Assembly: GCA_001898035.1 (NCBI GenBank)
Contig: MKRX01000015.1
Coordinates: forward strand, 149,614 to 213,613
Direction of reading: 5' to 3'
DNA from: Armatimonadetes bacterium 55-13
GTDB lineage: Bacteria; Armatimonadota; Fimbriimonadia; Fimbriimonadales; Fimbriimonadaceae
Length of the DNA stretch: 64,000 nucleotides
Shown here: positions 45,372-54,085 of the stretch, piece after piece
Layout of the letters: each line of letters begins with the position of its first letter
Position numbering within the stretch: position 1 is the stretch's first letter
Notes under the pieces: generated by a model
Seen by the model: only the letters and a program-made list of their open reading frames with translations
Databases searched by the model: none
What the model was told of the DNA's origin: nothing
Position numbers and translations under genes: made by a program

Positions 45372-45884
45372 ATGGATTTTGAGAAGTTAGCGCAGAAGCA
45401 TAAGGACGCGGTCTATCGACAGATGGTGCGGGCCTGCGGGAACTACGATGACGCGGAAGACGTGCTGATTCAGGCGCTCTTGAGCGCCTACAAAGCCCTG
45501 CCGACCCTGAAGGACGAGGGGGCGTTTCAGGCGTGGCTGGCGATTATCGGTCAGCGCGTCTGCACCCGGATCAAGAAGCGCGAGGCACTGCGCCCGGTGC
45601 TCTCCCTAAGCGGATTCTCGCCGGAGGACCTGGAGGTACCGGACACCTCGGCGGATGTGGAAGGGGCGGCAGAGACTCGGAACATCACCGAGTGCGTGAA
45701 GGGGGCGGTCTCCAGCCTGCCGGAGCCGATGCGCGAGGTTTATGAACTGCGGGAGCTTCAGGGGTTCAAGGCGGAGGAGACGGCGGAAAAGCTGGGGATC
45801 ACGGTCGCGGCGGTGAAGTCTCGCCTTCACCGGGCTCGGGAGCATGTGCGTCGGCAGTTGGATGAGAGCGTTTGCGGGGGCTGA
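45372..45884 (+). CDS. ECF-type RNA polymerase sigma factor
   Basis: Sigma-70 family protein of 170 aa with regions 2 and 4 only. Region 2: VYRQMVRACGNYDDAEDVLI and AFQAWLAIIGQRVCTRIKKR; region 4: SLPEPMREVYELRELQGFKA, EETAEKLGITVAAVKSRLHR. No anti-sigma gene is adjacent. TAATTT lies 5 nt before the ATG without a Shine-Dalgarno. A GGAACTT motif followed by TATAGT lies 126 bp downstream and could be one of its targets. Confidence 0.9.
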   Translation: MDFEKLAQKHKDAVYRQMVRACGNYDDAEDVLIQALLSAYKALPTLKDEGAFQAWLAIIGQRVCTRIKKREALRPVLSLSGFSPEDLEVPDTSADVEGAAETRNITECVKGAVSSLPEPMREVYELRELQGFKAEETAEKLGITVAAVKSRLHRAREHVRRQLDESVCGG

Positions 45885-46009: not shown

Positions 46010-46038
46010 GGAACTTTCCACCACAAGCCGAGTATAGT
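46010..46038 (+). promoter_or_regulatory. Possible ECF-type promoter
   Basis: GGAACT(T) at 46010-46016 and TATAGT at 46033-46038 are separated by 17 bp. GGAAC is the usual -35 core of ECF sigma factors, and an ECF sigma gene ends 126 bp upstream. It would drive the short hairpin RNA that follows. Confidence 0.35.
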
Positions 46039-46044
46039 ATGTTT

Positions 46045-46110
46045 AGGACCTAGACCAGTGAAATGTGATGGTCCTCCAGGGCTCACGACGAAAGTCGGGG
46101 CCCTATTTTA
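46045..46110 (+). ncRNA. Candidate two-hairpin small RNA
   Basis: First stem AGGACC/GGTCCT (46045-46050 with 46070-46075). Second stem AGGGCTC-A-CGAC-GAAA-GTCG-GGGCCCT (46078-46104), 11 pairs with one bulged A and a GNRA tetraloop, followed by ATTTTATA as in a terminator. No frame is present. It ends exactly where the convergent DUF3800 gene stops, so the second hairpin may instead serve as a shared terminator. Confidence 0.4.
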
Positions 46111-46959
46111 TACGTAGTGTATTTGTGCGATATTTGGGTTTCTCGGGTCTGGGCACCGTTGTGAGATATCGTTCAATCCGTGCTCTGCATTAAGTGAGAC
46201 AATCACATTGTTTGGTTGCACCTGCTGGAGCATAAAATACGCGCAAACATCGGCAAGCTGAACGCCATGATATTCGTCAGACTTGACGGCAATTGGGGCA
46301 AGTGGCTGTTTTGGCAAACTATGGCAAAGCGACCTATGGAGCGCTCGTACCGATCCAATTTGATTTTCATCCACTAGGGCGTGACCTTTCATTCCACGGT
46401 TGAGAAGAACTGCATCGAACTCAGACAGCAGTTTTGCAAAAACATCTAAGCGCATCTGTCGCTGAAGCTGGTTCTTGTCACGATTCGACTTTCCTACAAC
46501 GACTCTTGGCGTGCTTGAATCGGCAAGTACGTTTATGATGGCAATATTAGGGACAGTTGAGCAATTTGCCATAAAACGGCGAAGCCAATGAACCCGCACG
46601 CCGACGTGAGTTCCAGTTGGAAAGCCGTGGCCGTGGTGAACCCAGTCGACCGCATGAATCTCCATAGCACTGTTGGCGCCGTAGACTCCAAGAGCATTTC
46701 GAAACTGCAAGCAACAATCTTCGAAATTGCTTTGAGCTATTTTCGGAACGAAGACCCCCGTGGCACCAACATAGAATCGGGACGAAGATGAGGGAGGGCT
46801 TCCTGTTTCGTCGACATAGAGCCATCCACCAAATGTTCTTTCATGCCACTTAGGCACAAGTTTGTCATTCCAATAAACTTTGATAGGCTGAGTTCGCTTT
46901 ACAGCCCACTTTCTTGGCTCGCGCAGCAGGCGCAATACAAACCGCGCTGATTTGTGCAA
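46108..46959 (-). CDS. DUF3800 protein, third gene of the putative defence operon
   Basis: A 283-aa protein with a DUF3800 core: GWLYVDETGSPPSSSSRFYV (Asp-Glu-x-Gly), IIN-VLADSS strand, and the C-terminal KSDEYHGVQLADVCAYFMLQ (Gln-x2-Asp). DUF3800 is thought to have an RNase-H-like fold and is often found beside abortive-infection and restriction genes; the biochemical role is not established. TTG start 46959 has GAGGA eight bases upstream and lies 3 bp after the methyltransferase stop, so it belongs to that operon. Its codon usage is more A/T-tolerant than the flanking sigma and MFS genes. Confidence 0.75.
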   Translation of the reverse strand: MHKSARFVLRLLREPRKWAVKRTQPIKVYWNDKLVPKWHERTFGGWLYVDETGSPPSSSSRFYVGATGVFVPKIAQSNFEDCCLQFRNALGVYGANSAMEIHAVDWVHHGHGFPTGTHVGVRVHWLRRFMANCSTVPNIAIINVLADSSTPRVVVGKSNRDKNQLQRQMRLDVFAKLLSEFDAVLLNRGMKGHALVDENQIGSVRALHRSLCHSLPKQPLAPIAVKSDEYHGVQLADVCAYFMLQQVQPNNVIVSLNAEHGLNDISQRCPDPRNPNIAQIHYV

Positions 46960-46962
46960 TTC

Positions 46963-49900
46963 TCAGTCCTCACCCTTTTGGCGACGCACCCACCAATGGG
47001 CAGTATCAGCCGGCGACATTACTCTGCTTTCACCGTCCCGCCGAATGTAAACCTTGTCATCAAAGGTGAACATGGTTGAGCGATCTGGTTTTATGTCGAC
47101 ACGCGCGATCGTTTTTCCATCAATGGGAATAAACCTTACGCGAACGAGGTCGCTGGGGTCGGGGCGGAGTTTGACTCCGAATGCCTCCTGCAGTTTCCGT
47201 TGAAACTTGTCGGCGGTTTCCAGTTTTTCAAGGTCGCGGTCAATACCGACGATCTGGGCATCGTCATTCACCCCGATGAGGATCGTCCCACCCTCACGGT
47301 TAAGCATCGCACAGATCGCTTTCATCACATCCTGAACCCGGTCACCGTGCACGGCTCCTAAGCGGACATCATGCCAAAGGGTCTCCTTAAATTCAAGGGT
47401 TACGGTTTCTAGCCTCTGGCGAAGAAGCATCCGGATATCAGACTGATCCCTAGAAACGGCGTCTTCGTAAGAGTCGCCTTCTCCAAAGTAAAGGAACTCA
47501 ACACGTTTATTGATCTCCGCTTCTAGCTTACTAACGTCGGTTTCAGCATTAAGCTTTTTTTTATCCAGAATCTGCTGAACTAAGCTCGTCAGTTTTCCCT
47601 TTTCTAAATCTGGTGGATTGACAATCGGAAGGCGCTCAACTTCCTGCGACCGGAGTTCAAAAGTGCTGCCCTGCAGCGGCGAACAGATACTTACCAGGTA
47701 TTCCCATACAGAATCACTATTAAGAACGGCTAACAGCCAAAGATCATTTGCAGTGTAAATGAATCCCTTATCATTGGTCACACCTCCAGGTTGAGTTAAG
47801 GCAAACCTCGGCTCTGTCACCATGACCGGATAGATAATGTTTGAACTATCAAATGCTTCCCAATAGGCAATATCATCTTGTATTTCAAACCACTTGTAAT
47901 TACCCGCCTTTCTACCTGGCCAGCTCCTCTCTGAATCGTTCCAGTCTGACGGCTTTGGCTCCAAACGATCCCTGTACTTTAGCAAGTGTTTCTTTACAGC
48001 AGAATAGTTATCAATTTGAATACCCCGTCTTGTAAAAACCAACCAGCGATCATTATCCTCCACCACCCACCGCCGAATATCCCTTCCAATCGCTAGCGGC
48101 TTTATGATTTCTGCGCTCTTCGGGTCTTCAGCGATTAGTTCGGCACGCTTCGCGCCATCGATCACGAAAACTCCTTCCTTTCGCACGACTCGCACCCCAG
48201 ACGGGACAGATTTCCCGTACATCTTGCCGTCGTCACCGATCTTCACTTCGTTGAGCCCGGTTAGAATGCCGCGATATATTCGGCCCTTCACATACTCGCC
48301 GAGGGGCACTCCTCGCTCCCGCATCTTAGCCAACTTTTGGGCGGCCTCACCTATCTCCAGTCTCCACGTTCCCTCCCGGCCAAGGGAGCCCACTGGTAAG
48401 TCCCCGCCCCATTCTGCAATCGCAGTCGGCAAGTCTGGATACGGAGGGTTAAGCGATGTCACGGCGGTGAAGCGAGTTGTGGACTCGCTCTTGTCGCCCT
48501 CTATCCGCTTAGTTGCCAAAGTGATCAGTGGGTAAGCGATCGTGCCCTGAAAAATTGGTAGATCCCCGAAATCGATCAACTGCCGAACATGGCTTCGGAC
48601 GGCGATTTGTCCCCTAAGTTTCTGACCATACGCCGCTTTTAACCACTTGTTGCTAGTGATGAACGCGAACTGCCCCCCCGGGCGCAAAAGATCTAAGGAA
48701 CGGTCCATGAAATAGACCAGCAGATCGGCGGTCCCGGTGGCGGTCTTGGGATAGGCGGCGACGAGGGCGGACTTGTAGTCGCTGCCAACCGAACGCAAGA
48801 GTTCTCCTGAGTTCACATAGGGGGGATTCGCTACGACAATGTCGAAGCCGGGAAAACGACGAGTTCGAGTGGCGAGTTCCCCTTGGCCGCGACGCCCTGC
48901 CTCCACATCGAGATTCAGAGCGCCACCCATTGTTTCTTCCGAATCTTGAGGATCAAAGACTTCGGCAAACTCCACCTCCCAGTCGAACGGCATTTGTGAG
49001 AGGGACCGCAGACTGCTCCTGGACAATTCGCCCTCGAAAGCATCCGAAATCCTGGTCCGTTGTTTTTTCATTTGTTCCCGAGTCGGTCGGGTTTCACCAG
49101 GCTTCGGGTGGAAAAATCTTCCCTTCAATCGTGTGTACTCTCGTATCTCTTCACGCGGATACCCCAGCACGTTTTGTGCAGGAAAGAGGGGGGAGGCTAT
49201 TGAATCTCCCTGCATAATCAAGAAATCGAAGTTCGGCAATGGCTCCGGCTTCTCCCCTTTGTTCTCAACGACCAAAGAGAGCCAGACGCGAAGACGTGCC
49301 AAGCGAATCCCCGTCTCGCTTAAATCAACACCATAGACGCATCGCTGAAGAATGCGGAGTTTGGTTTCGTAGAGGTGCTTCTGGTTTACGTTGCGTCCCT
49401 TATCCCGACTCACCTCGACCCGGTCCACGAGATCAAAGATGCGCTGTAGCAACATTAAGAGATAGGCACCGGATCCGCAAGCAGGATCGACGGCTCGGAT
49501 CTCGAACAACCATTCAAGGGTGTCTTGCAACTCAGACGGAAGAAATGCGGGGCCATCCTCTCCTTTTTGGGGTTCGACACGGTCCTCATCCACGAGAATC
49601 GCAGCTTTCTCGGCACTTAAACCACGATCAACAAGGTAGCCCTTGATCGCCTCATTCACCATGAACTCAACGATTGGACGAGGGGTGTAATAAGTGCCGC
49701 TCCCATGTCGTTCAGACGCGATGATCAGACGCTCAAAGATCTTGCCCAGCATTTCCGGGTCCACGGCAACTTCTTGATCGAGCGGGGTGGATTCGGTGAC
49801 CGTAAAGTTGTAGCGGGCGAAGAGCCCACCGGTCTCGGAGAGAACTTCGCCAAATGCTGTATCCGGCAGTTCAATGCCTGGGATATCTAGAGGGTCGTCT

Positions 49901-50790
49901 CGATCAAACAGGCCACCGTTCAGGTAGGGAACGTCACCAATATCCGCACTGAACTTTCCTTTCGTCGGACTAGAATCTTCCGTATCCAACTCGGCAAAAA
50001 CGGCGCGGAGCATTCCGTAGAAAGTCTTGAAGCTACCGCGTGGTCCTTTAAAGAGATCGAACAGGTACCCGTCTTTCGAACCATTGGGCGCGCGCAACCA
50101 CCCCATTCTTTGGATGAACGCGATAAAGAGGAGGCGATTGAACAACAATTGTGTCCAGGCGTGCGCCTGCTTGTCGTCCGCCGCTCCTTTTACCTGGCTG
50201 AGGACATTGGCAAATACTTGCGCGTAGTCTCGATAAAACTGCTCCGTGAGCCCTTCCACGTCCCAAGCCTTGTCCCAATTGACACGCGCCGACCATTCGA
50301 GCCGTTCGAGGTTATGAGTTAAGACGGTTCGACCAATGAATTCCCGCCGCCAACCAAAAGATCGGATGCGAGGCACCCGTTTTTCTTGCTCTTCAAAGAG
50401 CACAAAACGCACGTCAGCAAATGGACTTGCATCCTTGTCCGATGGCGCGGCGACAATGAAGATCGTATCTCCGATGCCGGTGTGGTCTTCAAAGCGGCCC
50501 GTTTCCCGAATGATGCCTTTAAGAGACCTCAGAAGTTCTCGGAGGTCGCGCCGCACGTAGGGTTGACTAAACTCAGCCAGCAGGATGAGCCGCTCTCCTT
50601 CAACGCCCGCGGGAACAAGCCTTGAGACGGACACTTCGCTCCCAAACTTGACGCCTTGAGCAATCTCCGGCTCCTCCTGAAACGCTTCTTCAGGATCGAC
50701 CGGCCATCCTAAACCTACTTTCAGGAGGTCGGCGAGAGAAGAACGGTCTTGAACCGCGTCGACGAGGTCTTTGAGGGAGGGGGGAGGCAT
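46963..50790 (-). CDS. N6-adenine DNA methyltransferase with C-terminal Schlafen AlbA_2 domain
   Basis: A 1275-aa protein of the Eco57I/PglX-like type. Residues 1-350 are a largely alpha helical N-terminal region; GTYYTPRPIVEFMV (about 365) opens the methyltransferase, with SAM motif I DPACGSGAYL (435-444), VYGVDLSE and catalytic motif IV NPPY (655-658). Residues about 800-1100 resemble a TaqI-like target-recognition domain (LAIGRDIRRW, WFEIQDDIAYWEAF, LQGSTFELRSQEVERLPI). From 1132 to the end an AlbA_2 domain follows (LEFKETLWHDVRL, AICAMLNREGGTILIGVNDD). It could combine modification with a nuclease or nucleotide-sensing unit. The start follows TAATACCT repeats with no Shine-Dalgarno. Confidence 0.88.
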   Translation of the reverse strand: MPPPSLKDLVDAVQDRSSLADLLKVGLGWPVDPEEAFQEEPEIAQGVKFGSEVSVSRLVPAGVEGERLILLAEFSQPYVRRDLRELLRSLKGIIRETGRFEDHTGIGDTIFIVAAPSDKDASPFADVRFVLFEEQEKRVPRIRSFGWRREFIGRTVLTHNLERLEWSARVNWDKAWDVEGLTEQFYRDYAQVFANVLSQVKGAADDKQAHAWTQLLFNRLLFIAFIQRMGWLRAPNGSKDGYLFDLFKGPRGSFKTFYGMLRAVFAELDTEDSSPTKGKFSADIGDVPYLNGGLFDRDDPLDIPGIELPDTAFGEVLSETGGLFARYNFTVTESTPLDQEVAVDPEMLGKIFERLIIASERHGSGTYYTPRPIVEFMVNEAIKGYLVDRGLSAEKAAILVDEDRVEPQKGEDGPAFLPSELQDTLEWLFEIRAVDPACGSGAYLLMLLQRIFDLVDRVEVSRDKGRNVNQKHLYETKLRILQRCVYGVDLSETGIRLARLRVWLSLVVENKGEKPEPLPNFDFLIMQGDSIASPLFPAQNVLGYPREEIREYTRLKGRFFHPKPGETRPTREQMKKQRTRISDAFEGELSRSSLRSLSQMPFDWEVEFAEVFDPQDSEETMGGALNLDVEAGRRGQGELATRTRRFPGFDIVVANPPYVNSGELLRSVGSDYKSALVAAYPKTATGTADLLVYFMDRSLDLLRPGGQFAFITSNKWLKAAYGQKLRGQIAVRSHVRQLIDFGDLPIFQGTIAYPLITLATKRIEGDKSESTTRFTAVTSLNPPYPDLPTAIAEWGGDLPVGSLGREGTWRLEIGEAAQKLAKMRERGVPLGEYVKGRIYRGILTGLNEVKIGDDGKMYGKSVPSGVRVVRKEGVFVIDGAKRAELIAEDPKSAEIIKPLAIGRDIRRWVVEDNDRWLVFTRRGIQIDNYSAVKKHLLKYRDRLEPKPSDWNDSERSWPGRKAGNYKWFEIQDDIAYWEAFDSSNIIYPVMVTEPRFALTQPGGVTNDKGFIYTANDLWLLAVLNSDSVWEYLVSICSPLQGSTFELRSQEVERLPIVNPPDLEKGKLTSLVQQILDKKKLNAETDVSKLEAEINKRVEFLYFGEGDSYEDAVSRDQSDIRMLLRQRLETVTLEFKETLWHDVRLGAVHGDRVQDVMKAICAMLNREGGTILIGVNDDAQIVGIDRDLEKLETADKFQRKLQEAFGVKLRPDPSDLVRVRFIPIDGKTIARVDIKPDRSTMFTFDDKVYIRRDGESRVMSPADTAHWWVRRQKGED

Positions 50791-50798
50791 GGGAGTGA

Positions 50799-50828
50799 GG
50801 TATTAGGCAGTAGGTATTAGGTATTAGG
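50799..50828. repeat. GGTATTAGG tandem units at the helicase-methyltransferase junction
   Basis: GGTATTAGG occurs at 50799-50807 and as an overlapping double unit at 50813-50828 (GGTATTAGGTATTAGG), joined by CAGTA. They fill the 33-bp gap between the helicase stop codon (itself inside the repeat) and the methyltransferase start. Related GGTGTTAGG units occur after the SGNH gene. Confidence 0.65.
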
Positions 50829-53800
50829 CTCCAGTGACGATATTTGGGGACTTTTGAAGTTCCATCCAGCATACCAATTCGACCGCCACGGCTTGGGTAC
50901 GGTCGGGGATGGACGCGAGGGCCTGGGACCTTAGTTTTTTGAGTCCGGCCTTGAGCAAATCCAAATTCTCGGGCTTTCCACTCGGTTCACCGAGGACAGT
51001 TTGGGACAGCAGATCCAGGAGAGCGGCCGGGTCCGAAAGGATGCGACCCGAATCATCCAGGAACAGGAAACGGGGGGCGCCGATGACCGATTGGAAACGA
51101 CGTAGATCGGGAGGGGATACCGTATCTTCCGGTTGCCAGTCCTTTCCGGCTCCCTCGGGCCGCCGCCAAACAACTCTAAAGAGAGTGAATATCCCCTTCC
51201 TTGGAGCCCTTTCCCAGACTCCCAGCCCGCCCAAGGGAAGCTGATTCACCAGTGCCCTTTCTTCCGAATCAAGGGCTACTTGTCTAACGTATTCAATAAG
51301 TTGGGATTCCCGTGGGGTGGTCCCGCCTTCATAGAGAGCATTGAACTCCTTGAGCGTTCCGGCGGCATCGGTGCTCTTAAAGAAAGAGGCATCGAGACCA
51401 AGAAGGTAACTTATTTTACGCTGTCGGTTTTCGACGGTATCCACCAAGCCAATCACGCTGTTAATTGCGGCGGGCGGAAAAACATTGAGGATATCGAATT
51501 CATGATCGGGATCTTCATCTCGGAGTCGCCTATCGACACGGCCGATGCGCTGAATCAGGCGGGTAGGATTCCAATGGAGGTCGTAGTTAAGGATGCAACC
51601 TGCTTCCTGTAAATTGACGCCCTCGGCCAAGACATCCGTGGTGACGAGAATGTGCAATTCCTCCAAAGGGGCCATTTCAAGTAGCCCGCCTTTTCGGGGA
51701 AGGTCGTTATACTTCGGGGAGAAGGCATTGAGGATCCTGGCCCGAGTATCGCCGCCAACCTCTGCGGTCACTAAGCCGACCTTTTCTTTCACTAACTTGG
51801 GAAGCTCTCTCTGAATGTAGTCGGCGGTTCGCCGACTTTGGCTAAAGAGGAGCACTTTTCGTCCCAGATTCCGCTGAGCTAAGACGTGGCGGGCGACCTC
51901 ATGGAGTTTTGAATCCGTCTCTCTTTGGGCACTGAGACACTTTGAGTGAATGCTTTCCAGGTGCTCCAGATCACGGAGGATATCGTCTCGCCAGGCATCC
52001 ACCCGGTGGGTTTTGGCACTGAATTCAAGCTCTTGCAGACGTTTAATGGCTCGCTTTTCTTCACGGCAGATGTAGTCATCCGTTTCGCCGCCACTGGCTT
52101 CATCCGATACCGCATCTTCAGCCTCGAAGCCCAGATCGGGCTCTGGCTCAGGGTTCGCGGGGAGACGCGTCCACTGCTCATGCCGCTGGAGCGCGGATTG
52201 CACTTTAGGCTCTTCTCCACAGTAGTGGCGCAGGCGAAGCGCTAAGCCCTGACCCAGGGCCTCGATGATCGATTGGAACGCGACGGTGGAACTTTCCAAC
52301 TGCTTCATCACATTGATGAAGACCATCTTCGCAAGAAACGCCTCGATCTGGGCCTGGCGGTTGCCGATGGACTTGGACCTGAGAAACAGATTAGGAAGAT
52401 AGCCGCTGAATTTGAGGCCGTGCTGTGGCGCAGGACCGAAATTGGCCTTAACCTCGCGGTCCGATTCGCTGGCCTTACTGACTTCGGCAGTGTACTTAGC
52501 GAGATATTTGCCAAGTTCTTCAAAGCGCAGAGTCGCCTCACGGATGAGAGATTCGTGACCATCACCCAGTTCGTATCGAATCTCTTGAGGATCTGTCCGG
52601 TGCGGAAAGCGGAGCCGCTTTCCAGCAGCTTCCGCAAGCTCACGGCAGGTCTTTCTCGAACGCTGGATGGCCACCGATTCGAGCGCGGCTCCCAGTAAGG
52701 TATCCGTTAGGAGGGAATCATAGTCAAACAATGAATCTTGGTCCGGTGGTGGTCCGGCTTTAGCAACCTCTTTGTCTCGATTTCTGGCCTGGCGACTCAG
52801 TTGGAGTCGCGCGATTCCAGAGATCGTTCCACCCTCGTGGGTCAGTAGTTGGAATTGGTTGGTTAGGTCTTCATACCGCGTATTTACGGGCGTAGCGGTC
52901 AAGAGAATGATCTTCTTTCGGCCCCTTTCGTTCGGCGCTACGGCTTCGTAGAGATTCTTGTAGCGTTGAGTTGCGGAATTGCGGAAGTTGTGCGACTCAT
53001 CGATAACCACCACATCGAAGTTCTGGATAAGATCTCGCAATCCTTCGGCATCCTCCGTGTCCTTTTCAGGATCAAATCCAAACCATGTCATGGGGAGCCC
53101 TTGAATGCTCTTCGAGAACTGCCGGTTGTAGGATCCCAAGTATCGCCGGAGATATCCTTCCCACGAACTCTTTAGAATGGCCTTCGGCGCAACGAGGAGG
53201 ACTCTGGAACCTTCGCTGAGCCAATGCTCCATGAGGGCAAGCGCTACAAAGGACTTACCCAAGCCCACACCATCGCAAACCATGACGCCGGGTTCGCGTT
53301 GTAAGATCCGAAGCGCTTGGCGATAGGCATGCTCTTGGTGAGGATCAAGGAGGGGAAGAATCTCAAGTGGTTTAAGGGGCGCCCGTCCCTGCACATGGTC
53401 GCCCCAGGCGAGGAGAGCTTTTAGATAGATGGCGTGTGGCTCGTAGAGACGAATCTGCCGCTCTAGATACTCCGCGAGAACCTCCGTAAAGTCGTCTTCT
53501 TCGGCCTCTTCCCACTTTGCCTGGTACCACGCCACTAGCTTTTCGGTCTGTTCCTCTTGCGTTTTAAGGTTGAGCTCAACGTTTTTGGTAAGTCCACTGC
53601 GCGTGAAGTTCCCGCTGCCAACGATGCTGGAGATTGGCGGCTCGCCGGTGCGATGCGAAATGTAGAGCTTGGCGTGGAAGTTTTCTTTGCGGTAGATGCG
53701 GGCTTCGAGACGGCCCTCTTCAATGAGTCGCTTAGCGCATTGGAGACCTTGCAGAAGCGGGTCTTCTTTCCGGTCTTCCAGTAAGTTCTCGTCGGACTGA

Positions 53801-54045
53801 GTTTGCAAGGCTTGCAGGATCGCATTGCGCTGCCTGGGATTGGCCTCCGCGCCGTATAGCAGCCGGATCTTATCGGCCTTCAGGAGGTTCTCGCCGACAA
53901 GGTTGAGCGCATCAAGAGAAAAGAATGCGGTTGCAATCCAGAGTTCGCGCCCGTCAACCGTGATTTTTTCCAGCGCCTTCTGAAGCGTGTTGTCGCCTTG
54001 ATTGTCGACGATGCTGGTGAGGGAGAGGGGAAGCACAACGGACAT
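50824..54045 (-). CDS. PLD nuclease-SNF2-type helicase fusion of the putative defence operon
   Basis: A 1073-aa protein. Residues 30-160 form a phospholipase-D-like domain with one HxK motif (NFHAKLYIS, His124/Lys126) and SIVGSGNFTRSGL (Ser144, Asn146), as in BfiI-type nucleases. The SF2/SNF2 helicase follows: Walker A GVGLGKS (259-265), DESH (349-352), TATP (383-386), LFSQSRRTADYIQREL, TTDVLAEGVNLQEA and QRIGRVDRR (832-840). Residues 900-1073 are unassigned. ATG 54045 is correct: the 254 codons upstream are Arg/Pro/His-rich antisense of the SGNH gene. It is the first gene of the operon and likely the motor and nuclease. Confidence 0.9.
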   Translation of the reverse strand: MSVVLPLSLTSIVDNQGDNTLQKALEKITVDGRELWIATAFFSLDALNLVGENLLKADKIRLLYGAEANPRQRNAILQALQTQSDENLLEDRKEDPLLQGLQCAKRLIEEGRLEARIYRKENFHAKLYISHRTGEPPISSIVGSGNFTRSGLTKNVELNLKTQEEQTEKLVAWYQAKWEEAEEDDFTEVLAEYLERQIRLYEPHAIYLKALLAWGDHVQGRAPLKPLEILPLLDPHQEHAYRQALRILQREPGVMVCDGVGLGKSFVALALMEHWLSEGSRVLLVAPKAILKSSWEGYLRRYLGSYNRQFSKSIQGLPMTWFGFDPEKDTEDAEGLRDLIQNFDVVVIDESHNFRNSATQRYKNLYEAVAPNERGRKKIILLTATPVNTRYEDLTNQFQLLTHEGGTISGIARLQLSRQARNRDKEVAKAGPPPDQDSLFDYDSLLTDTLLGAALESVAIQRSRKTCRELAEAAGKRLRFPHRTDPQEIRYELGDGHESLIREATLRFEELGKYLAKYTAEVSKASESDREVKANFGPAPQHGLKFSGYLPNLFLRSKSIGNRQAQIEAFLAKMVFINVMKQLESSTVAFQSIIEALGQGLALRLRHYCGEEPKVQSALQRHEQWTRLPANPEPEPDLGFEAEDAVSDEASGGETDDYICREEKRAIKRLQELEFSAKTHRVDAWRDDILRDLEHLESIHSKCLSAQRETDSKLHEVARHVLAQRNLGRKVLLFSQSRRTADYIQRELPKLVKEKVGLVTAEVGGDTRARILNAFSPKYNDLPRKGGLLEMAPLEELHILVTTDVLAEGVNLQEAGCILNYDLHWNPTRLIQRIGRVDRRLRDEDPDHEFDILNVFPPAAINSVIGLVDTVENRQRKISYLLGLDASFFKSTDAAGTLKEFNALYEGGTTPRESQLIEYVRQVALDSEERALVNQLPLGGLGVWERAPRKGIFTLFRVVWRRPEGAGKDWQPEDTVSPPDLRRFQSVIGAPRFLFLDDSGRILSDPAALLDLLSQTVLGEPSGKPENLDLLKAGLKKLRSQALASIPDRTQAVAVELVCWMELQKSPNIVTGA

Positions 54046-54055
54046 GCGAACCTTA

Positions 54056-54085
54056 AGTATAGGATTTTTAGTGACTTTTGGGCAA
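54056..54085 (-). promoter_or_regulatory. Promoter of the putative defence operon
   Basis: On the minus strand TTGCCC (54085-54080), an 18-bp spacer and TATACT (54061-54056) precede ATG 54045 by 10 nt. Transcription would begin about 4 nt before the ATG, so the message may be nearly leaderless, although AAGG is also present just upstream. Confidence 0.55.

Follow-up and report, generated by a model that had tools for sequence, protein, structure and literature searches.

A predicted ATP-dependent restriction-modification operon of Armatimonadetes bacterium 55-13 pairs a PLD nuclease-SNF2 motor protein with a methyltransferase module that is exchanged among relatives

The types of restriction-modification (RM) systems are usually defined by fixed sets of subunits. 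In Type ISP enzymes a single chain includes an Mrr nuclease (PMC3874165), and SauUSI is a dimeric enzyme with a single HxK site (PMC7913695). Fusions of a motor to a PLD nuclease were reported earlier in SauUSI (PMC7913695), PbeA (PMC10853773) and BREX-related type 2 systems, the last of which require a DUF499 ATPase and DUF3780 (PMC12839542). The same architecture is catalogued in PADLOC as 'HKD+Snf2'. The PLD-motor fusion of the locus analysed here is not new in itself, a point on which a preliminary description of this DNA needs amendment.

The window, the whole stretch of DNA that was analysed, comprises 64,000 nucleotides of contig MKRX01000015.1. Three open reading frames lie on its minus strand at 46108-54045, and the intergenic gaps are 33 bp (HEL/MTase) and 3 bp (MTase/DUF3800), as had been described for a three-gene operon. 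The genes and the candidate promoter are as follows.

50824..54045, minus strand: gene 1, PLD nuclease-SNF2 motor fusion (HEL), 1073 aa, ATG at 54045 (Pfam, PADLOC, AlphaFold)
46963..50790, minus strand: gene 2, putative N-terminal adaptor, Eco57I-type N6-adenine methyltransferase (MTase), TaqI_C target recognition domain (TRD) and AlbA_2, 1275 aa (Pfam, PADLOC)
46108..46959, minus strand: gene 3, DUF3800 protein, 283 aa, TTG start (Pfam)
54056..54085, minus strand: candidate sigma-70 promoter TTGCCC-18-TATACT, about 10 nt ahead of the HEL ATG

The TTG start of gene 3 is backed by an alignment from residue 1 with the homologue in genome G094. The TTGCCC-18-TATACT sequence at 54085-54056 was the sole sigma-70-like site of note. 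Because the count of such sites in the region was not above chance (5 versus 4.6 in shuffles) and the mRNA would be nearly leaderless, we consider it only plausible that this candidate promoter drives the operon. The contrast in codon use with the G-skewed flanks, which had been pointed out before, was confirmed: GC3 was 0.46-0.60 in the operon but 0.67-0.80 across nine genes of the flanks, whose strong strand-linked G skew the operon does not show. This shift in composition fits acquisition. The flanking genes were taken, by eye from their translations, for housekeeping genes (nusB, folD, MFS, sigma factor, GDSL), and a comparison of flanking genes for empty sites showed a family without conserved synteny. 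At 46037-46112 on the plus strand, a GC-rich hairpin with a T-rich tail overlaps the end of the DUF3800 gene; it gave a sub-threshold Rfam match to BjrC68 (E 0.23) and is perhaps the terminator of the convergent sigma-factor gene that ends at 45884.

The first gene of the operon carries the following parts.

53506..54012, minus strand: PLD nuclease half-site domain (HxK = H124/K126, GSxN = G143-N146, E157)
53668..53676, minus strand: codons of the HAK catalytic motif, read from the sequence
51529..53349, minus strand: SNF2/SF2 motor (Walker A G261xGK264, DESH 349-352, motif VI QRIGRVDRR 832-840)
50827..51180, minus strand: HEL C-terminal domain, residues 956-1073, replaced together with the MTase in genomes G118/G119

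Pfam matched HEL with PLDc_2 (5e-8), SNF2-rel (1e-8) and Helicase_C (2e-17), and the PLD model RE_NgoFVII also matched it. In an alignment of 30 diverse HEL homologues with about 22-45% identity to the window protein, the residues of the single PLD half-site (H124, K126, G143, S144, N146 and E157) were invariant, as were those of the motor, namely G261, G263 and K264 of Walker A, D349, E350 and H352 of DExH, and motif VI. The AlphaFold model of HEL (pLDDT 79.8, pTM 0.70) had its best PDB matches in RapA and SNF2 remodellers. The PADLOC profile 'HKD+Snf2' (C3a139) matched residues 80-871 with 159 bits (3.2e-47), while homologues from Achromobacter and an Enterococcus plasmid reached 430-444 bits with E values down to 1e-133. 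Judging from these profile scores, the HEL of the window is a divergent branch of the PADLOC HKD+Snf2 family. Pfam found no TRD in HEL.

The second gene was divided as follows.

50281..50790, minus strand: N-terminal adaptor domain (putative), residues 1-170 of the MTase, no Pfam family (phmmer, phylum profile search)
48541..49536, minus strand: gamma-type N6A methyltransferase domain (Pfam), motifs intact
47623..48096, minus strand: TaqI_C-like target recognition domain (Pfam, slightly below the cut-off)
47017..47409, minus strand: Schlafen AlbA_2 domain, E1128-x4-E1133 and D1176/D1177, SLFN13-like triad

Here Pfam reported Eco57I (2e-31), SLFN_AlbA_2 (4e-19) and TaqI_C, the last with E 1.2e-5 and 26.0 bits, just under the cut-off of 26.5 bits. 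The MTase motifs are intact (DPACGSG at 435 and NPPY at 655), and the best PADLOC assignment is REase_MTase_IIG (3e-79). The enzyme had been called PglX/Eco57I-like; of the two it lies closer to Eco57I, since Type IIG/Eco57I models scored 265 bits and PglX 49. The AlbA_2 residues E1128-x4-E1133 and D1176/1177 parallel the triad of the SLFN13 RNase, E205-x4-E210 and D248 (PMC5862951), and the two glutamates are kept in most copies of which the N-terminal part was covered. Thus one operon contains an MTase with a TRD, an NTPase motor and a nuclease, which is the content of an ATP-dependent RM system in the broad sense.

At 1e-20, relatives of HEL were found in 82 of the 291 genomes of the phylum, about a dozen of them full-length or nearly so with more than 40% identity. 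Such relatives are also spread over very many further phyla, and plasmids and viral contigs carry them too. Within the close clade, the MTase was the next gene after HEL in all 12 loci with downstream sequence (the window, L032-L038, L040-L042 and L067). Across 122 HEL loci of all degrees of relationship, an MTase was in the operon in 86 and nearby in 96, and many distant loci had other genes between HEL and the MTase. The objection that the homologues never co-occur, raised beforehand as a check on unrelated genomes, thus fails.

Several neighbouring genes were seen in these loci. In the distant operon L109 (13300-14343), the gene of about 350 aa between HEL and the MTase is the PADLOC candidate PDC-S02 with a PD-DExK match. 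A separate DUF4391 gene follows the PLD-SNF2 gene on an Enterococcus faecium conjugative plasmid (L230) and in many IMG/VR loci (L153-L224). In L230 it stands between HEL and a Type III-like Mod/Res pair, and L142 and L145 are alike by gene size. Proteins of 174 aa just downstream of the module in L032/L033 have a HELLH-type zinc-peptidase-like motif, and an IrrE/M78 peptidase is also found downstream in genome G097 (L250).

Since a RapA/SNF2-like helicase and a PglX/DrmMI-like MTase also form a pair in DISARM class 1, ARMADA (PMC12458937) and BREX-related type 2, the last with an HKD-Snf2 fusion as well (PMC12839542), we considered that the operon might have arisen from DISARM, ARMADA or the BREX-related (DUF499) group by degeneration or divergence, with loss of the other genes. 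Weak DrmD and DrmMI matches point in this direction. However, HEL scored only 88 bits on DrmD against 159 bits on 'HKD+Snf2', and 135 bits on the PLD anti-phage protein model NF042964, the cut-off of which is 1100. Moreover, DUF499 (PF04465) was absent from the window genome and never stood on a HEL contig in 32 genomes, and the two-gene form of the locus is common and widespread. We therefore regard such an origin as very improbable.

The N-terminal domain of the MTase was characteristic of this family of loci. In genome G119, the first 180 or so residues of a Type ISP-type MTase matched the N-termini of the Eco57I-type partners (phmmer, best whole-protein E 7e-24 to 7e-25), whereas the catalytic parts of the two types barely matched. 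A profile of the domain found 30 places at E < 1e-20 in the 291 genomes, and all 30 adjoin a HEL gene. A weaker match (E 2e-18) was a standalone protein of 204 aa directly after HEL in L251. Because the domain is common to two MTase classes and every strong match adjoins HEL, we think that it is a probable docking adaptor between MTase and HEL, as its genomic linkage suggests. AlphaFold, run from 4 sequences, gave the domain a pLDDT of 51.5 and no PDB match. Its direct profile link to DUF4391 was not significant (A4 versus A8, E 0.15); distant-MTase N-termini were weakly linked to DUF4391 (E 1.7e-4) and to A4 (E 2.4e-4), by which a shared origin of the adaptor and DUF4391 is weakly suggested.

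The domain also occurs N-terminal to proteins resembling sigma-70 regions 2/4, in L035:12949-14298 (G094) and L250:3318-4685 (G097:C21). In G094, the run of genes continues from DUF3800 through a GmrSD_N protein to this fusion; in G097, the fusion comes after a Type ISP-type MTase starting at the contig edge.

These observations bear on another explanation, according to which the MTase would be a Type IIG enzyme that works by itself, with a nuclease of its own at the N-terminus and the PLD-SNF2 protein is an independent, Type IV-like neighbour. The PADLOC assignment to REase_MTase_IIG agrees with this, and SauUSI, a PLD-SF2 enzyme, works without an MTase (PMC7913695). The N-domain, however, has no nuclease-like set of conserved acidic and lysine residues, its invariant columns being L27, W29, R84 and W147. 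Its strong matches lie only beside HEL and on two MTase classes, HEL has no TRD by Pfam, and the HEL-MTase pairing is kept across phyla. Such independence of the two proteins is thus improbable in our opinion.

Exchange of the MTase as a module was seen in G118 and G119, which are of one genus. Their DNA is 96-97% identical in HEL and on either flank, all within single contigs, but the MTase modules between these conserved flanks are non-homologous. G118 has an Eco57I-type MTase with AlbA_2. G119 has a Type ISP-type MTase (727 aa), an ORF of 176 aa and a Type_ISP_C specificity protein (E 1.5e-76). At L033:11546-13521 (G119), the 176-aa ORF, with a possible membrane segment, splits the ISP-type MTase from Type_ISP_C; in other loci these two form a single chain. 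In a tree of HEL built without its C-terminal part, the ISP-type partner requires five changes, at least four of them on well-supported branches. The motor is kept and the class of MTase is swapped; this modularity is the new part of our findings, and the two genomes provide an unusually clear case of exchange.

The breakpoint of the exchange lies inside the C-terminus of HEL, where identity falls from 96-100% to 37% over the last 120 or so codons. This hinted that the HEL C-terminus is a dock specific to the MTase type. L035, however, does not bear this out: its partner is of the Eco57I type, yet its HEL C-terminus resembles that of the ISP-type locus L033. Because L035 breaks the correlation with type, the position of the breakpoint may be accidental, and co-adaptation of the HEL C-terminus with the MTase type is no more than a possibility.

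From gene content, intact motifs and the pairing across genomes, which support the earlier proposal of ATP-dependent modification-restriction by a system that has a nuclease of its own, the PLD domain, we consider it likely that the operon works as an R + M~S system in the following manner. The M~S protein, an Eco57I-type MTase with a fused TRD, would methylate adenine at one asymmetric site as a self mark. At an unmethylated site it would recruit the R protein, probably through the N-terminal adaptor and the R C-terminal domain. The SNF2 motor would then translocate on duplex DNA, and a pair of PLD half-sites would meet, either as dimers of the SauUSI/BfiI type or by a Type I/ISP-like collision, and cut the invader; an anti-phage effect may be expected. 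AlbA_2 and DUF3800 would be additional nucleases that most likely act on RNA as back-up effectors.

The data on DUF3800 were as follows. Gene 3 matched the Pfam model with 1.5e-6, and its conserved residues were D50, E51, E100, D197 and D237. An exact twin of the three-gene operon was found in one other genome, G094 (L035), with identities to the window of 44% for HEL, 53% for the MTase, 71% for AlbA and 56% for DUF3800; outside G094, no DUF3800 homologue of the window kind was found in the 291 genomes or on plasmids. In the G222 locus, two DUF3800 genes accompany HEL, the MTase and one further ORF, and standalone DUF3800 genes lie four or fewer genes from HEL in L063, L084, L088, L137 and L149. 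Three loci, L114 (Akkermansiaceae), L131 (Lentisphaerae) and the viral contig L150, carry DUF3800 as a C-terminal fusion on the MTase itself, at residues of about 1330-1520. Our local DUF3800 profile had matched these long MTases, and Pfam showed them to be genuine fusions, ruling out drift of the profile as the source of the matches. The MTase tail can thus bear AlbA_2 or DUF3800. A search for RNAs associated with DUF3800 gave no Rfam match. The standalone neighbours and the fusions indicate that the association of DUF3800 with the system is not due to chance, yet it is not essential. DUF3800 is a recurrent accessory rather than a core part, and the most fitting view of the locus is that PLD-SNF2 and MTase make up a two-gene core to which the third gene is an accessory. 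The fusions also supply a concrete functional partner for DUF3800.

An alternative is that the system is primarily abortive, the DNA RM part serving as a sensor and AlbA_2 and DUF3800 killing or arresting the cell by cutting RNA. The SLFN13-type E-x4-E...D triad kept in AlbA_2, the description of DUF3800 as an RNase H-fold nuclease family found in CRISPR loci (PMC10910872, PMC12669027) and its fusion to the MTase in three loci all favour this. But most homologous loci lack the two domains, while the PLD and motor motifs are invariant, so neither is required for the basic function. We hold an abortive main role to be unlikely, and prefer DNA cleavage by the PLD-SNF2 protein with the accessory nucleases as a back-up.

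What these results mean for RM systems can be considered as follows. Between G118 and G119 the MTase is of a different class although the motor-nuclease is conserved, so the recognition part is exchangeable wholesale, and a swap at the same chromosomal place suggests a plug-in design. We speculate, with about even confidence for the whole picture, that a conserved PLD-SNF2 'engine' takes unrelated modification and recognition modules through a dedicated adaptor, and that the classical RM types would be interchangeable front ends. The modules would be of the Eco57I/IIG type and the Type ISP type; plasmid and viral loci would add Type III Mod together with DUF4391. We count the Type III-like Mod/Res as a third sort of front end for the PLD-SNF2 motor. 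The adaptor could be part of the MTase, a protein by itself, or joined to another product of the operon, for example the sigma-70-like factor. Perhaps such a short domain might serve to re-target a translocating nuclease. In the open-access papers that were searched, we found neither the adaptor nor the IIG-to-ISP exchange described, and no account of MTase-DUF3800 fusions.

Judged from its sequence, the operon is best read as an ATP-dependent RM system that is neither DISARM nor BREX-related and, by the content of the operon, probably not BREX. As had been noted before, it contains none of drmA/B/C or the brx/pgl genes; pglZ and brxC are absent from its three-gene content. DISARM class 1 and ARMADA likewise pair a RapA-like helicase with a PglX-like MTase (PMC12458937), but they add a YprA-family helicase. 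The window operon has no such partner and is therefore neither of them; its SNF2 protein bears a nuclease, and its matches to DrmD and DrmMI are weak only. BREX-related type 2 likewise has an HKD nuclease N-terminal on a Swi2/Snf2 helicase together with an N6-MTase (PMC12839542). The window operon does not belong there because DUF499 is absent from the genome, and Pfam found no DUF3780 domain in the three proteins.

NgoAVII and CglI likewise consist of a PLD nuclease, an ATPase and an MTase; in these the PLD protein carries a B3 TRD and the ATPase is separate and of the Z1 type, whereas in the window PLD and SNF2 are one protein and the TRD is on the MTase, with no B3 or Z1 match by Pfam in the three proteins. 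Unlike Type I systems, the operon has no HsdS, the TRD being fused to the MTase. The Type ISP enzymes LlaGI and LlaBIII likewise couple a gamma-MTase and a TRD to an SF2 motor and a nuclease, but the window has two proteins, a separate SNF2 motor, a PLD nuclease and a TaqI_C-like TRD; Type_ISP_C is not found in the window and occurs only in relatives such as G119. SauUSI likewise fuses a PLD nuclease to an SF2 translocase; unlike the window system, it is a Type IV enzyme that recognises 5mC through a TRD of its own and has no MTase (PMC7913695). PADLOC HKD+Snf2 with its REase_MTase_IIG MTases has the same PLD-SNF2 architecture, the window protein being an HKD nuclease-Snf2 helicase fusion that matches the profile; this is a component name without a described mechanism, of which the window clade is a divergent branch. 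Taken together, the proposed working mode resembles that of SauUSI and the Type I/ISP enzymes, and the layout differs from each of them.
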